Of a DNA stretch of 64,000 nt, positions 52,328 through 55,497 are shown in pieces. Each line of letters starts with the position of its first letter. Positions within the stretch are counted from its first letter, which is position 1. The DNA is from Robiginitalea myxolifaciens (lineage in GTDB: Bacteria; Bacteroidota; Bacteroidia; Flavobacteriales; Flavobacteriaceae), in the NCBI RefSeq assembly GCF_900115205.1, contig NZ_FOYQ01000001.1, positions 709,240 through 773,239 of the forward strand, given 5' to 3'. Both the position numbers and the translations under genes were made by a program. The notes beneath the pieces were generated by a model. That model ran no database searches. It was not told the origin of the DNA and saw nothing but the letters and a program-made list of their open reading frames with translations.

Positions 52328-52783
52328 GTGGATACACTGAGCTACAAGACCTTGTCCGCCAACAGCAAGACCGTAACCAAAGAATGGGTACTGGTAGATG
52401 CTGAAGGGCAGCCTTTAGGCCGTATGGCCTCTAAAGTGGCCAAAATTTTACGTGGGAAGTACAAGCCCGACTTTACCCCTCACGTGGATTGCGGTGACAA
52501 TGTGGTTATCATCAATGCTGAGAAGGTTAGCCTTTCCGGCAACAAATGGGACGATAAAGAGTACATCCGTTACACAGGTTATCCGGGAGGTCAGCGCAGG
52601 CGAACTGCTCGCGATCTGCACGCCAAGAAGCCAGAAGCCATCGTTGAGAAGGCTGTAAAAGGAATGCTCCCTAAGAATAAACTCGGTGCCGATCTCTTCC
52701 GCAACCTGCGTGTATACGCCGGAGCGGAGCACGATCAGGAAGCTCAGAAACCCAAAGCGATCAACTTAAACGACCTTAAATAA
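52328..52783 (+). CDS. rplM: 50S ribosomal protein L13
   Basis: L13 is an early assembly protein of the large subunit. The 151-residue sequence has VTKEWVLVDAEGQPLGRMAS, PHVDCGDNVVIINAEKV and KAVKGMLPKNKLGADLFRNL, the conserved blocks of the family. The start is a GTG at 52328-52330 (MDTLSYKTLSANSK), which agrees with the usual flavobacterial N-terminus. The TAA overlaps the rpsI ATG by one base, so L13 and S9 are coupled. Confidence 0.97.
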   Translation: MDTLSYKTLSANSKTVTKEWVLVDAEGQPLGRMASKVAKILRGKYKPDFTPHVDCGDNVVIINAEKVSLSGNKWDDKEYIRYTGYPGGQRRRTARDLHAKKPEAIVEKAVKGMLPKNKLGADLFRNLRVYAGAEHDQEAQKPKAINLNDLK

Positions 52784-53169
52784 TGGAGGTAATTCACAAA
52801 ATTGGAAGAAGGAAAACAGCGGTAGCCCGTGTTTATGTTTCCAAGGGAAAAGGAAATATCAGCGTAAACAAGCGTGAGCTGAACACGTATTTCCCAACTC
52901 CTACCCTGCAGTATAAGGTTAAGCAACCTTTGGCCCTTACAGAAAACGAAAACGCTTTTGATGTAAAGGTTAATGTATATGGTGGTGGAATCACCGGTCA
53001 GGCCGAAGCTGTTCGCCTTGCACTTTCCCGTGCAATGGTAGAACTGGACGAGGAGAACCGCGGGATCCTGAAACCAGAAGGATTGTTGACGCGTGATCCA
53101 CGAATGGTAGAACGGAAGAAATTCGGTCAGAAGAAAGCCCGGAAGAAATTCCAGTTCTCCAAGCGTTAA
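52783..53169 (+). CDS. rpsI: 30S ribosomal protein S9
   Basis: S9 places its C-terminal tail near the P-site tRNA. The 128-residue protein has HKIGRRKTAVARVYVSKGKG at the start and DPRMVERKKFGQKKARKKFQFSKR at the end, with the basic tail ending in the conserved SKR. The ATG overlaps the rplM stop. Two hairpins follow within 75 bases, one of which may be its terminator. Confidence 0.97.
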   Translation: MEVIHKIGRRKTAVARVYVSKGKGNISVNKRELNTYFPTPTLQYKVKQPLALTENENAFDVKVNVYGGGITGQAEAVRLALSRAMVELDEENRGILKPEGLLTRDPRMVERKKFGQKKARKKFQFSKR

Positions 53170-53417
53170 AATTTCCTGCTCGGATCATTTTTGGTCCGGG
53201 CATTATTATATGTTCAACGTCGCCTGGTGCGACACCTTTTTAACCCTGTTCCTTGAAAGACTTCCCGCCTGCGGGGAGTCATGCTGAGACCCGAAGGCCT
53301 TTTGGCCCGACGGAGCCCGCTTAGTTTAGCATCTAAATGACTAAGGCGCGTTTTGGGAGTATTCCCTAAACAACCACTTGGTCATTGCGCATTCAAAGAA
53401 CGTAAACTAAATGAAAA
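53170..53417 (+). promoter_or_regulatory. Structured leader between rpsI and rpsB, candidate S2 leader
   Basis: No gene lies here. The RNA can form a series of stems: 53178-53187 with 53192-53201 (10 pairs, two G-T); 53219-53223 with 53229-53233, followed by ACC and TTTTT at 53237-53241; 53259-53267 with 53272-53280 (nine pairs); 53296-53299 with 53304-53307; 53320-53325 with 53340-53345, holding an inner TTAG/CTAA stem; and GGGA/TCCC at 53355-53366 inside GCGC arms at 53346-53349 and 53387-53390. No TAnnTTTG box is visible. Such leaders often bind the encoded ribosomal protein. Confidence 0.55.
53219..53241 (+). terminator. Possible terminator after rpsI
   Basis: Perfect stem GTCGC/GCGAC with a 5-base loop, then ACC and five T residues. 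It could end the rplM-rpsI message or be part of the rpsB leader. Confidence 0.5.
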
Positions 53418-54617
53418 ATGGCTGTAAAAGCTGAAGTCAAAGACTTACTGGAAGCTGGGGTGCACTTTGGTCACCTCACAAGAAAGTGGAACCCGAATAT
53501 GGCGCCCTACATCTACATGGAGCGCAACGGAATCCACGTAATCAATCTGTACAAAACTGTTGCCAAGCTCGAAGAAGCTTGCGAAGCACTGAAGAAAATT
53601 TCTGCTTCAGGCCGCAAAATCCTTTTCGTCGCTACCAAGAAGCAAGCGAAGGATATTGTTGCCCAGAAGATTTCTGAGGTCAACATGCCTTACATCACTG
53701 AGCGCTGGCCCGGTGGAATGCTGACAAACTTTGTCACTATCCGGAAAGCGGTCAAGAAAATGACGGCTATCGATCGCATGAAGAAAGACGGTACTTTCAA
53801 CACCCTTTCTAAAAAGGAGCGTTTGCAAGTAGATCGCCTGCGTGCGAAACTGGAAAAGAACCTCGGATCTATCTCGGATATGACCCGTTTGCCCGGAGCT
53901 ATCTTTGTTGTGGATACCATGCGCGAGCACATTGCCGTAAAGGAAGCCCAAAAGCTGAATATTCCGGTTTTTGCCATGGTGGATACGAACTCTGATCCCC
54001 GTCCTATAGACTTTGTTATTCCATCTAACGACGACGCCTCCCGCTCAATCGAAGTAATCATGAGCCGCGTTGCGGAAGCAGTTTCTGATGGTCTTGCCGA
54101 GCGCAAGTCCGAGAAGGCTGCCGAGAAAGAAGGGAAAGAAGAAAAAGCGACCGAAGCCAAAGCAGAAACCAAAGTAGCCGAAGCCCCTAAAGCAGAAGCG
54201 CCAAAGGCGGAAGCTCCTGTCGAAGCAGCTCCGGCCAAAGAGGAAAAGCCAGCAGCAGCTGAAGCGCCTAAAGCCGAGGAAAAGAAGGCAGCTCCTAAGA
54301 AAGAGGAAGCTCCTGCTAAAGAAGCGAAGAAAGAAGCCCCTGCCAAAGCAGCTAAAGCAGCTACCGCAGAAGATCTCACCAAGATCGAGGGAATTGGACC
54401 AAAGGCTGCTGAAGCCCTTACCAAAGCTGGAATCAGCACTTATGCTGCGCTTGCCGAAGCTAAGCCCGATGCCATCAAAGAAATCCTCACTGAAGCCAGC
54501 TCCCGTATGGCACACCTGGATCCAGGATCCTGGCCAAAGCAAGGTAAAATGGCTGCCGAAGGTAAGTGGGATGCCCTTAAAGAATGGCAGGACAACGCCA
54601 AAGGTGGCGTAGAATAA
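53418..54617 (+). CDS. rpsB: 30S ribosomal protein S2 with long linker and C-terminal helix-hairpin-helix domain
   Basis: Residues 1-232 are a normal S2: EAGVHFGHLTRKWNPNM, YITERWPGGMLTNF, GAIFVVDTMREHIAVKEAQ and NSDPRPIDFVIPSND. Residues about 233-315 are a low-complexity linker of Ala, Lys, Glu and Pro ([19 protein letters not shown] and similar). Residues 316-399 form a separate domain with AEDLTKIEGIGPKAAEALTK, a helix-hairpin-helix, followed by DPGSWPKQGKMAAEGKWDAL. Bacterial S2 normally has about 230-260 residues. The extra domain is very close to the tail of ActC in this window. ATG at 53418. tsf follows after 55 bases. Confidence 0.96.
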   Translation: MAVKAEVKDLLEAGVHFGHLTRKWNPNMAPYIYMERNGIHVINLYKTVAKLEEACEALKKISASGRKILFVATKKQAKDIVAQKISEVNMPYITERWPGGMLTNFVTIRKAVKKMTAIDRMKKDGTFNTLSKKERLQVDRLRAKLEKNLGSISDMTRLPGAIFVVDTMREHIAVKEAQKLNIPVFAMVDTNSDPRPIDFVIPSNDDASRSIEVIMSRVAEAVSDGLAERKSEKAAEKEGKEEKATEAKAETKVAEAPKAEAPKAEAPVEAAPAKEEKPAAAEAPKAEEKKAAPKKEEAPAKEAKKEAPAKAAKAATAEDLTKIEGIGPKAAEALTKAGISTYAALAEAKPDAIKEILTEASSRMAHLDPGSWPKQGKMAAEGKWDALKEWQDNAKGGVE

Positions 54618-54672: not shown

Positions 54673-55497
54673 ATGGCAAAAATCACTGCCGCTGAAGTAA
54701 ATAAACTGCGAAAGGCTACCGGAGCCGGGATGATGGATTGTAAAAACGCATTGGTGGAAGCCGATGGCGATTTTGACAAAGCAATCGAAATCCTGCGCAA
54801 GAAGGGTCAAAAAGTTGCCGCTAAGCGCGCTGACCGTGAATCTTCAGAAGGAGCTGCTATCGCGAAGGTAAACGAAGGTAAAACCACAGGGGTAATTATT
54901 TCCCTCAACTGTGAGACCGACTTTGTAGCCAAGAACGAAGGTTTTGTAAACCTGGCCAATGAACTGGCTGAGCTTGCCCTGGCATACAACGATAAGGATT
55001 CATTCCTCGCAGCCGATTACAACGGCATGAGTGTTCAGGAAAAACTGACTGAGCAAACCGGGGTGATTGGAGAGAAAATCGAAATCGGAGGGTTCTCCAA
55101 ACTCGAGGCTCCTTTCGTAGGTTCTTACATCCACGCCGGTAACAAGATTGCTACCCTGGTTGGGCTTTCTGCTGCGGTCAACGGAGCTGCTGAAGTTGCC
55201 AAAGATGTTGCGATGCAGGCTGCTGCCATGAATCCTGTTGCCCTGAACGAAGAAGGCGTTAATCAGGAGACTATTGATAAAGAAATCGAAATTGCCAAGG
55301 ACCAACTTCGTCAGGAAGGAAAGCCGGAAGCCATGCTCGATAAAATTGCCCAGGGGAAACTCAAGCGTTTCTTCAAGGACAATACCCTGGTAAATCAGGA
55401 TTTTATCAAAGACAGTAAGCAAAGCGTTGCTCAGTACGTGAAGTCTGCCGATCCTTCCCTGGAAGTGACCGGATTCGAGCGCGTAGCACTGGGATAA
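54673..55497 (+). CDS. tsf: Elongation factor Ts
   Basis: EF-Ts recycles EF-Tu by nucleotide exchange. The 274-residue protein starts with the UBA-like N-terminal domain (VNKLRKATGAGMMDCKNALVEA), then carries the EF-Tu contact motif CETDFVAKNEGF and two core subdomains; FFKDNTLVNQDFIKDSKQSVAQY lies near the end. Length is normal for Bacteroidota. ATG at 54673. It closes the ribosomal operon and is followed by a strong terminator. Confidence 0.98.
   Translation: MAKITAAEVNKLRKATGAGMMDCKNALVEADGDFDKAIEILRKKGQKVAAKRADRESSEGAAIAKVNEGKTTGVIISLNCETDFVAKNEGFVNLANELAELALAYNDKDSFLAADYNGMSVQEKLTEQTGVIGEKIEIGGFSKLEAPFVGSYIHAGNKIATLVGLSAAVNGAAEVAKDVAMQAAAMNPVALNEEGVNQETIDKEIEIAKDQLRQEGKPEAMLDKIAQGKLKRFFKDNTLVNQDFIKDSKQSVAQYVKSADPSLEVTGFERVALG

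Follow-up and report, generated by a model that had tools for sequence, protein, structure and literature searches.

A conserved candidate leader RNA upstream of rpsB (uS2) in Bacteroidia

In Robiginitalea myxolifaciens the genes rplM-rpsI-rpsB-tsf follow each other in this order, and rpsI and rpsB are separated by a gap of 248 nt (53170-53417; positions are those of the window, the whole stretch of 64,000 nt that was analysed). The questions raised by this locus are whether the gap carries a regulatory RNA, which of its stems belong to it, and what such an RNA would respond to. A first-pass annotation had described the gap as a strongly folded leader without a promoter box, possibly a new S2 leader for flavobacteria. 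The genes concerned are the following:

52328-52783, plus strand: rplM (uL13), two genes before rpsB; start as in the listed open reading frame, Pfam PF00572
52783-53169, plus strand: rpsI (uS9), the immediate 5' neighbour of the rpsB gap; open reading frame and Pfam PF00380
53418-54617, plus strand: rpsB (uS2), the putative target of the regulation, whose product would be the ligand; Pfam PF00318, E = 5.6e-92
54673-55497, plus strand: tsf (EF-Ts), the gene after rpsB and putatively co-regulated with it; Pfam PF00889

The gap as a whole folds to -83.2 kcal/mol, compared with -64.1 +/- 4.9 kcal/mol for 200 dinucleotide shuffles (z = -3.9, no shuffle being as low), which bears out the claim that it holds more structure than a simple intergenic gap. 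The fold includes stems of 11 bp (53177-53202), 5 bp (53219-53233), and 9 bp (53259-53280), followed by a stem of 10 bp (53336-53386) that encloses an apical hairpin and one of 8 bp (53321-53328 with 53403-53410). The stems noted in the first-pass annotation thus exist; they do not form one unit, however, as about half of them lie outside of the conserved element. The annotation was also right about the promoter, since no sigma-70-like box is found on the plus strand of 52700-53700. The flavobacterial promoter box has the form TTG-N17-23-TANNTTTG, and it occurred in none of 84 related gaps, where 0.68 occurrences were expected.

When the gap is compared with its counterparts in related genomes, the conserved element comprises only the 3' part, 53321-53410. 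Together with two flanking bases this core adopts the consensus structure when folded alone (z = -2.97; of 200 shuffles, 2 were as low). The consensus consists of a helix P1, UUAGUUUA/UAAACUAA (GUUUA/UAAAC), a GCA/ACG internal loop, the 3-bp helix P1b (UCY/RGA), and P3, a long hairpin of 10-11 bp with a bulged A, after which a 3' bulge mostly begins with GC. A side loop of P3, either GGC/ACCAC or GAC/CUAC, is conserved in most leaders. In the window the parts are placed as follows:

53321-53328, plus strand: 5' strand of P1, TTAGTTTA, pairing with 53403-53410; covariance model R2, whose alignment includes the window, matches 53321-53410
53329-53331, plus strand: internal loop GCA, facing ACG at 53400-53402; columns mostly near-invariant
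53332-53334, plus strand: 5' strand of P1b, TCT, with partner AGA at 53397-53399
53336-53346, plus strand: 5' strand of the lower stem of P3, with covariation
53350-53371, plus strand: apical hairpin of P3, different among relatives
53375-53386, plus strand: 3' strand of the lower stem of P3, with bulged A at 53376 and covariation
53387-53396, plus strand: 3' bulge, with conserved GC at 53387-53388 and with TTCAA at 53392-53396 as 3' strand of the helix PA (see below)
53397-53402, plus strand: 3' strand of P1b, AGA, and internal-loop ACG, placed by alignment and covariation
53403-53410, plus strand: 3' strand of P1, TAAACTAA, ending 7 nt 5' of the rpsB ATG

Two other pairings of the core were considered and are not favoured. 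The local hairpin GUUUAG-CAU-CUAAAU can be drawn in many sequences, but its A-U pair is broken by a GCAUCC variant, which in A1 (an alignment of cores, defined below) was seen by eye to keep P1, P1b (as C-G), and P3. The pairing UUAGC/GCUAA, again judged by eye, has a 3' side that changes to GCGCA, GCUCA, GCACU, or GCUAU while the 5' side stays constant.

At every locus extracted, rpsI precedes rpsB. The 5' and 3' anchor words of the element were present in all 110 gaps of a first batch when a permissive pattern was used, and with a stricter pattern the anchors were found in 165 of 173 gaps (those 110 and 63 further ones); the eight gaps without them all belong to the 63 further loci and to four families of the order. 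Covariance model R1 located the element in 81 of 99 relatives, with 81 of 82 matches adjoining rpsB and the remaining one at a contig end (78 lay within the adjacency cut-off, and three more, checked by hand, run 6-9 nt past the rpsB start). The genomes missed by R1 include four without a usable rpsB start, families that lack the element, and one family with diverged copies, which were found by R2. A second genomic place of the leader was not seen, apart from one genome in which two contigs carry rpsB. In a class-wide sample, 65 of 395 genomes gave one R1 match each, all 65 between rpsI and rpsB; R2 likewise gave one match each in 54 of the 395 genomes of a phylum sample, with all 19 newly fetched loci at rpsB. 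Of the genomes missed by R1 or R2, 26 were inspected. Four have the element (in one of these, L296, it reached only E = 0.027 and was recognised by eye); the other 22 lack it, and in 16 of these the gap measures 7-53 nt. The leader is therefore widespread in Bacteroidia, yet not universal. "Flavobacteria" in the original proposal has proven too narrow, because 51 of the 65 class-sample matches fall in 11 Bacteroidia families outside of the R1 alignment; what holds is a conserved and covarying element at rpsB that matches no Rfam family. Three of the leader-less Bacteroidia have an 18-nt rpsI-rpsB gap with AGGAGG, even though recognition of Shine-Dalgarno sequences is reported to be absent from ribosomes of this class.

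Conservation and covariation in close relatives, on which the first-pass annotation had made its proposal depend, are both strong, and the covariation holds up against a tree-aware null in which substitutions are redistributed on an rpsI/rpsB tree. Two alignments were used: A1 holds 97 of 131 diverse cores, the class with a short P3 and cores with large inserts being excluded although P1 and the loop can be seen in them by eye, and the class-wide A2 holds 77 of 116 sequences. In A1, 93.6% of the cells are paired versus 80.9% after shuffling, and 255 cells have changed on both sides versus 68 +/- 8; in A2 the corresponding values are 91.3% versus 75.4% and 330 versus 117 +/- 9. Controls in which the strands were slid against each other brought the pairing in both alignments down to 30-49%. 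In the lower stem of P3, nine of the 11 pairs have changed on both sides, and a single pair can show as many as 20 compensatory events. Under the tree null, p = 0.002 is reached by eight pairs of P3 when the G statistic is used; for compensatory events the same holds for seven of these, with p = 0.056 for the other one. For P1, the same null supports pair 3 (four compensatory events, p = 0.002) and pair 4 (one event, p = 0.016), while the outer pairs 1 and 2 are unsupported (p = 0.46 and 0.22), and five inner pairs hardly vary in A1, three of them never. Additional compensation in P1 was seen by eye in leaders that the scans had missed, with GGGUUCA/UGAACCC in L299 and GUUCA/UGAAC in L310. Pair 3 of P1b is supported by four compensatory events (p = 0.004) and follows a Y-R pattern (UA 39, CG 21, and UG 6 among 77). 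G-U occupies 81 of 1833 cells, which points to an RNA rather than a DNA palindrome.

Based on these comparisons, we consider it probable (at roughly 0.72) that 53321-53410 is a cis-acting Bacteroidia rpsB (S2) leader that controls the translation of rpsB, and perhaps also of tsf. Its likeliest ligand would be uS2, both because of the gene context and because of the precedent in E. coli, for which repression of rpsB-tsf by uS2 through the 5' UTR has been described (PMC10931766). In the proposed mechanism, uS2 that exceeds the free 30S precursors would stabilise P1 by binding the RNA near the GCA/ACG loop and near the bulge that separates P3 from P1b. A closed P1 would block the loading of the 30S subunit on rpsB, resulting in less uS2 and probably also less EF-Ts; at low levels of uS2, P1, a helix rich in A and U, would open and allow translation of rpsB. 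The blocking step is proposed on account of the position of P1, the end of which lies 7 nt from the AUG and which in some families extends into the AUG itself. Among 165 Flavobacteriales leaders, the distance from the end of the UAAAC word of P1 to the AUG is 8-13 nt in 147 and 0-3 nt in 3; it is also 0-3 nt in 11 of 65 class-sample leaders. Where the distance is that short, start-codon bases can become part of P1. Nine leaders have UAAAC directly abutting the rpsB AUG. If the proposal is true, it adds an S2 leader to a class whose ribosomes are described as not recognising Shine-Dalgarno sequences (PMC9976891) and in which translational control must differ; a P1 beside or touching the AUG would be a directly testable mode of such control.

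Alternatively, the structure could be a genuine rpsB leader that responds not to uS2 alone but to EF-Ts, bS1, bS21, or a uS2-bS1 complex. The next gene is tsf, uS2 of E. coli is reported to need bS1 for good repression (PMC10931766), and initiation in flavobacteria is described as unusual, with a role for bS21 (PMC9976891). On the other hand, rpsB follows the motif directly wherever adjacency was checked, the GFP signal of an rpsB fusion in F. johnsoniae was highly similar across bS21 backgrounds in the experiments reported there (PMC9976891), and in the text of the 2020 r-leader survey all known r-leader ligands are encoded by a regulated gene (PMC7247131). We thus regard a ligand other than uS2 alone as unlikely. 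The odds are somewhat poorer still for a ligand-free structure that merely fixes rpsB translation or the stability or processing of its mRNA, with the uS2 share constant. Such a role would suit an element that sits between terminator-like hairpins and a start codon and whose ligand is itself deduced from context, but the loops GCA, ACG, and GGC/ACCAC or GAC/CUAC are conserved across many families, which exceeds the needs of a plain stability element.

The leader could also be a diverged homologue of a known one. The rpsB motif of Proteobacteria and others (t44, RF00127) likewise lies before rpsB(-tsf) and has a long helix and variable hairpins; its published order is a first helix P1 (PA being the P1-like helix in Flavobacteriaceae, see below), a P2 hairpin, J2-3, P3, the 3' strand of the first helix, and a 3' extension that pairs with J2-3 (PMC2704228). 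Shared ancestry as well as function would explain why the same gene is preceded by the same element order in Flavobacteriaceae, as judged from that description. The Bacteroidia core differs in that P1, P1b, and P3 are nested, that their conserved loops are distinct, and that P1 lies beside the AUG; gaps of about 81-100 nt, as found in many Bacteroidia, are too short for the additional helix PA. Moreover, covariance models gave no match in either direction: the t44 model, which scored 83.5 bits on the E. coli leader as control, had no match at E <= 10 in 52783-53600 or at E <= 1 in 20 loci, and R2 had none to the E. coli rpsB leader. Descent from a common rpsB motif therefore appears about as improbable as a ligand-free structure, and we class the element as a new structural variant among r-protein leaders, outside of the t44 family.

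It also did not correspond to any other catalogued family, a point that the first-pass annotation had left to a comparison with Rfam. No family of Rfam 15 matches the window region or the 20 loci, and only a tRNA reached its gathering score in the window; the sub-threshold matches to whalefall-1 (16.6 bits, gathering score 37), bxd_5 (11.9, 50), and MIR6426 (26.5, 96) were dismissed. Among published leaders, the Bacteroidia L13 r-leader comes closest, as it is an r-protein leader of the same class in the same cluster, rplM-rpsI-(rpsB); its first regulated gene is rplM, and it is set apart by position from the S2 element, which lies after rpsI (PMC7247131). The S4, S15, and S16 r-leaders of Flavobacteria and the S4 r-leader of Bacteroidia were predicted from covariation in the same lineages at other genes (PMC7247131). 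Table 1 of that survey by Eckert and Weinberg contains no S2 leader for Bacteroidota (PMC7247131), and none was found in the main text of the open-access literature covered. The leader could readily be submitted to Rfam as a new family. Mimicry of 16S rRNA by sequence received no support, as 0 of 14 cores resembled a single 16S locus of the same genus (4524 nt with flanks) at p < 0.05. This locus was used because RF00177 had no match in the assembly from which the window comes, unlike in six of six relatives searched; the 16S gene is probably missing from or was left out of that assembly.

In leaders with long gaps, a further strand upstream of the core is complementary to the 3' bulge (UGUUG/CAACA, CGUUG/CAACG, CUGUUA/UAACAG, and others). 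The resulting helix PA would cross P1 and thereby give the element order of the Proteobacterial rpsB motif, so that the PA-bearing form of Flavobacteriaceae would share the pseudoknot order described for that motif (PMC2704228). The relevant parts in the window are the following:

53248-53257, plus strand: 5' strand of PA, GTTC-C-TTGAA, which can pair with 53392-53401; a helix in the whole-gap fold
53259-53280, plus strand: hairpin of 9 bp that follows the PA strand and precedes P1, with an unconserved sequence that differs among relatives

The 9-bp hairpin is placed as P2 is in the known rpsB motif. Of 61 rows that have CAACRG on the 3' side, 36 combine A97 (A1 numbering) with U in the upstream strand and 17 combine G97 with C there; the remainder are two G-U pairs, one mismatch, and five rows with no such strand within 60 nt. 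When the 3' segments were shuffled among leaders, the mean of 12.65 for the real combinations exceeded the maximum of 5000 shuffles (12.54). In the tree test, which covered the 48 of 97 rows with an alignable upstream strand, PA2 (three events, p = 0.004), PA5 (two events, p = 0.008), and PA6 (three events, p = 0.004) were supported, while pairs 1, 3, and 4 showed no covariation; in individual leaders PA was significant in 18 of 108 at p <= 0.05 and in 2 of 108 at 0.01. The comparative support for a putative pseudoknot is thus moderate overall in Flavobacteriaceae, and it is weak in the window because the pairing barely varies in the window's class (GUUC-UUGAA).

Important to note here is that R97 and G98 are claimed by PA as well as by P1b, which makes the full pseudoknot and the nested fold, as drawn, mutually exclusive. 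R97 covaries both with Y14 of the core (P1b) and with the upstream Y (PA), and the joint states of the upstream base, 97, and 14 in the 48 rows are U-A-U in 25, C-G-U in 12, C-G-C in 5, and others in 6, which would be compatible with either a switch or base triples. In Flavobacteriaceae, pairing of the PA strand with the bulge would lock P1 in a pseudoknot. A speculative and on balance doubtful extension of the uS2-leader reading is that the Flavobacteriaceae leader is a two-state pseudoknot switch in which uS2 chooses between P1b and PA, or that it forms U.A-U and C.G-C major-groove triples, and that the pseudoknot order has been selected independently in Bacteroidota and Proteobacteria. With the many Bacteroidia gaps that leave no room for PA, the pseudoknot looks like an addition to the core. 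Side by side with the Proteobacterial rpsB motif, the leader would make it possible to test for a repeated choice of the same pseudoknot by a single late-binding r-protein.

Upstream of PA, a AAGTTCAT word, which also precedes P1, is conserved in a number of Flavobacteriaceae gaps, and it is present even where the PA strand of the leader lies elsewhere. The 5' part of the gap has two further elements:

53177-53212, plus strand: terminator-like element behind rpsI, an 11-bp hairpin (53177-53202) with a T-rich tail, outside of the conserved leader
53219-53243, plus strand: second terminator-like hairpin of 5 bp, followed by a T tract

Terminator-like hairpins were found in the 5' parts of 38 of 84 related gaps, compared with 2.5 in shuffles. 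The first two stems of the gap are therefore best read as putative intrinsic terminators of the rplM-rpsI unit and not as leader, and the same hairpins suggest that Flavobacteriaceae frequently transcribe rpsB-tsf as a unit of its own, although no promoter consensus was found. Despite these hairpins behind rpsI and in the 38 gaps, it is scarcely credible that the structure as a whole serves to terminate or attenuate transcription between rplM-rpsI and rpsB-tsf. The hairpins lie upstream of the conserved core, the core in the window has no called terminator-like site, many Bacteroidia gaps are too short for such hairpins, and this reading would account for the initial stems but not for the conserved element.

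The possibility that the sequence TCATGCTGAG...CGAAG (from about 53279) is a dispersed repeat was rejected, as the genome has one exact copy, the next best site has two mismatches, and 80 sites with at most three mismatches compare with 45 for a reversed control. The whole rpsI-rpsB gap is single copy in its own genome. No relatives of rpsB were met in a scan of viral contigs. In residues 240-399 of the encoded uS2 (53418-54617), a linker rich in Ala, Lys, and Glu is accompanied by a helix-hairpin-helix domain at the C-terminus (HHH_5 at 318-356). Several genomes of the same genus and family give full-length matches to this form of uS2; in many relatives, a similar tail is also present at a second place.
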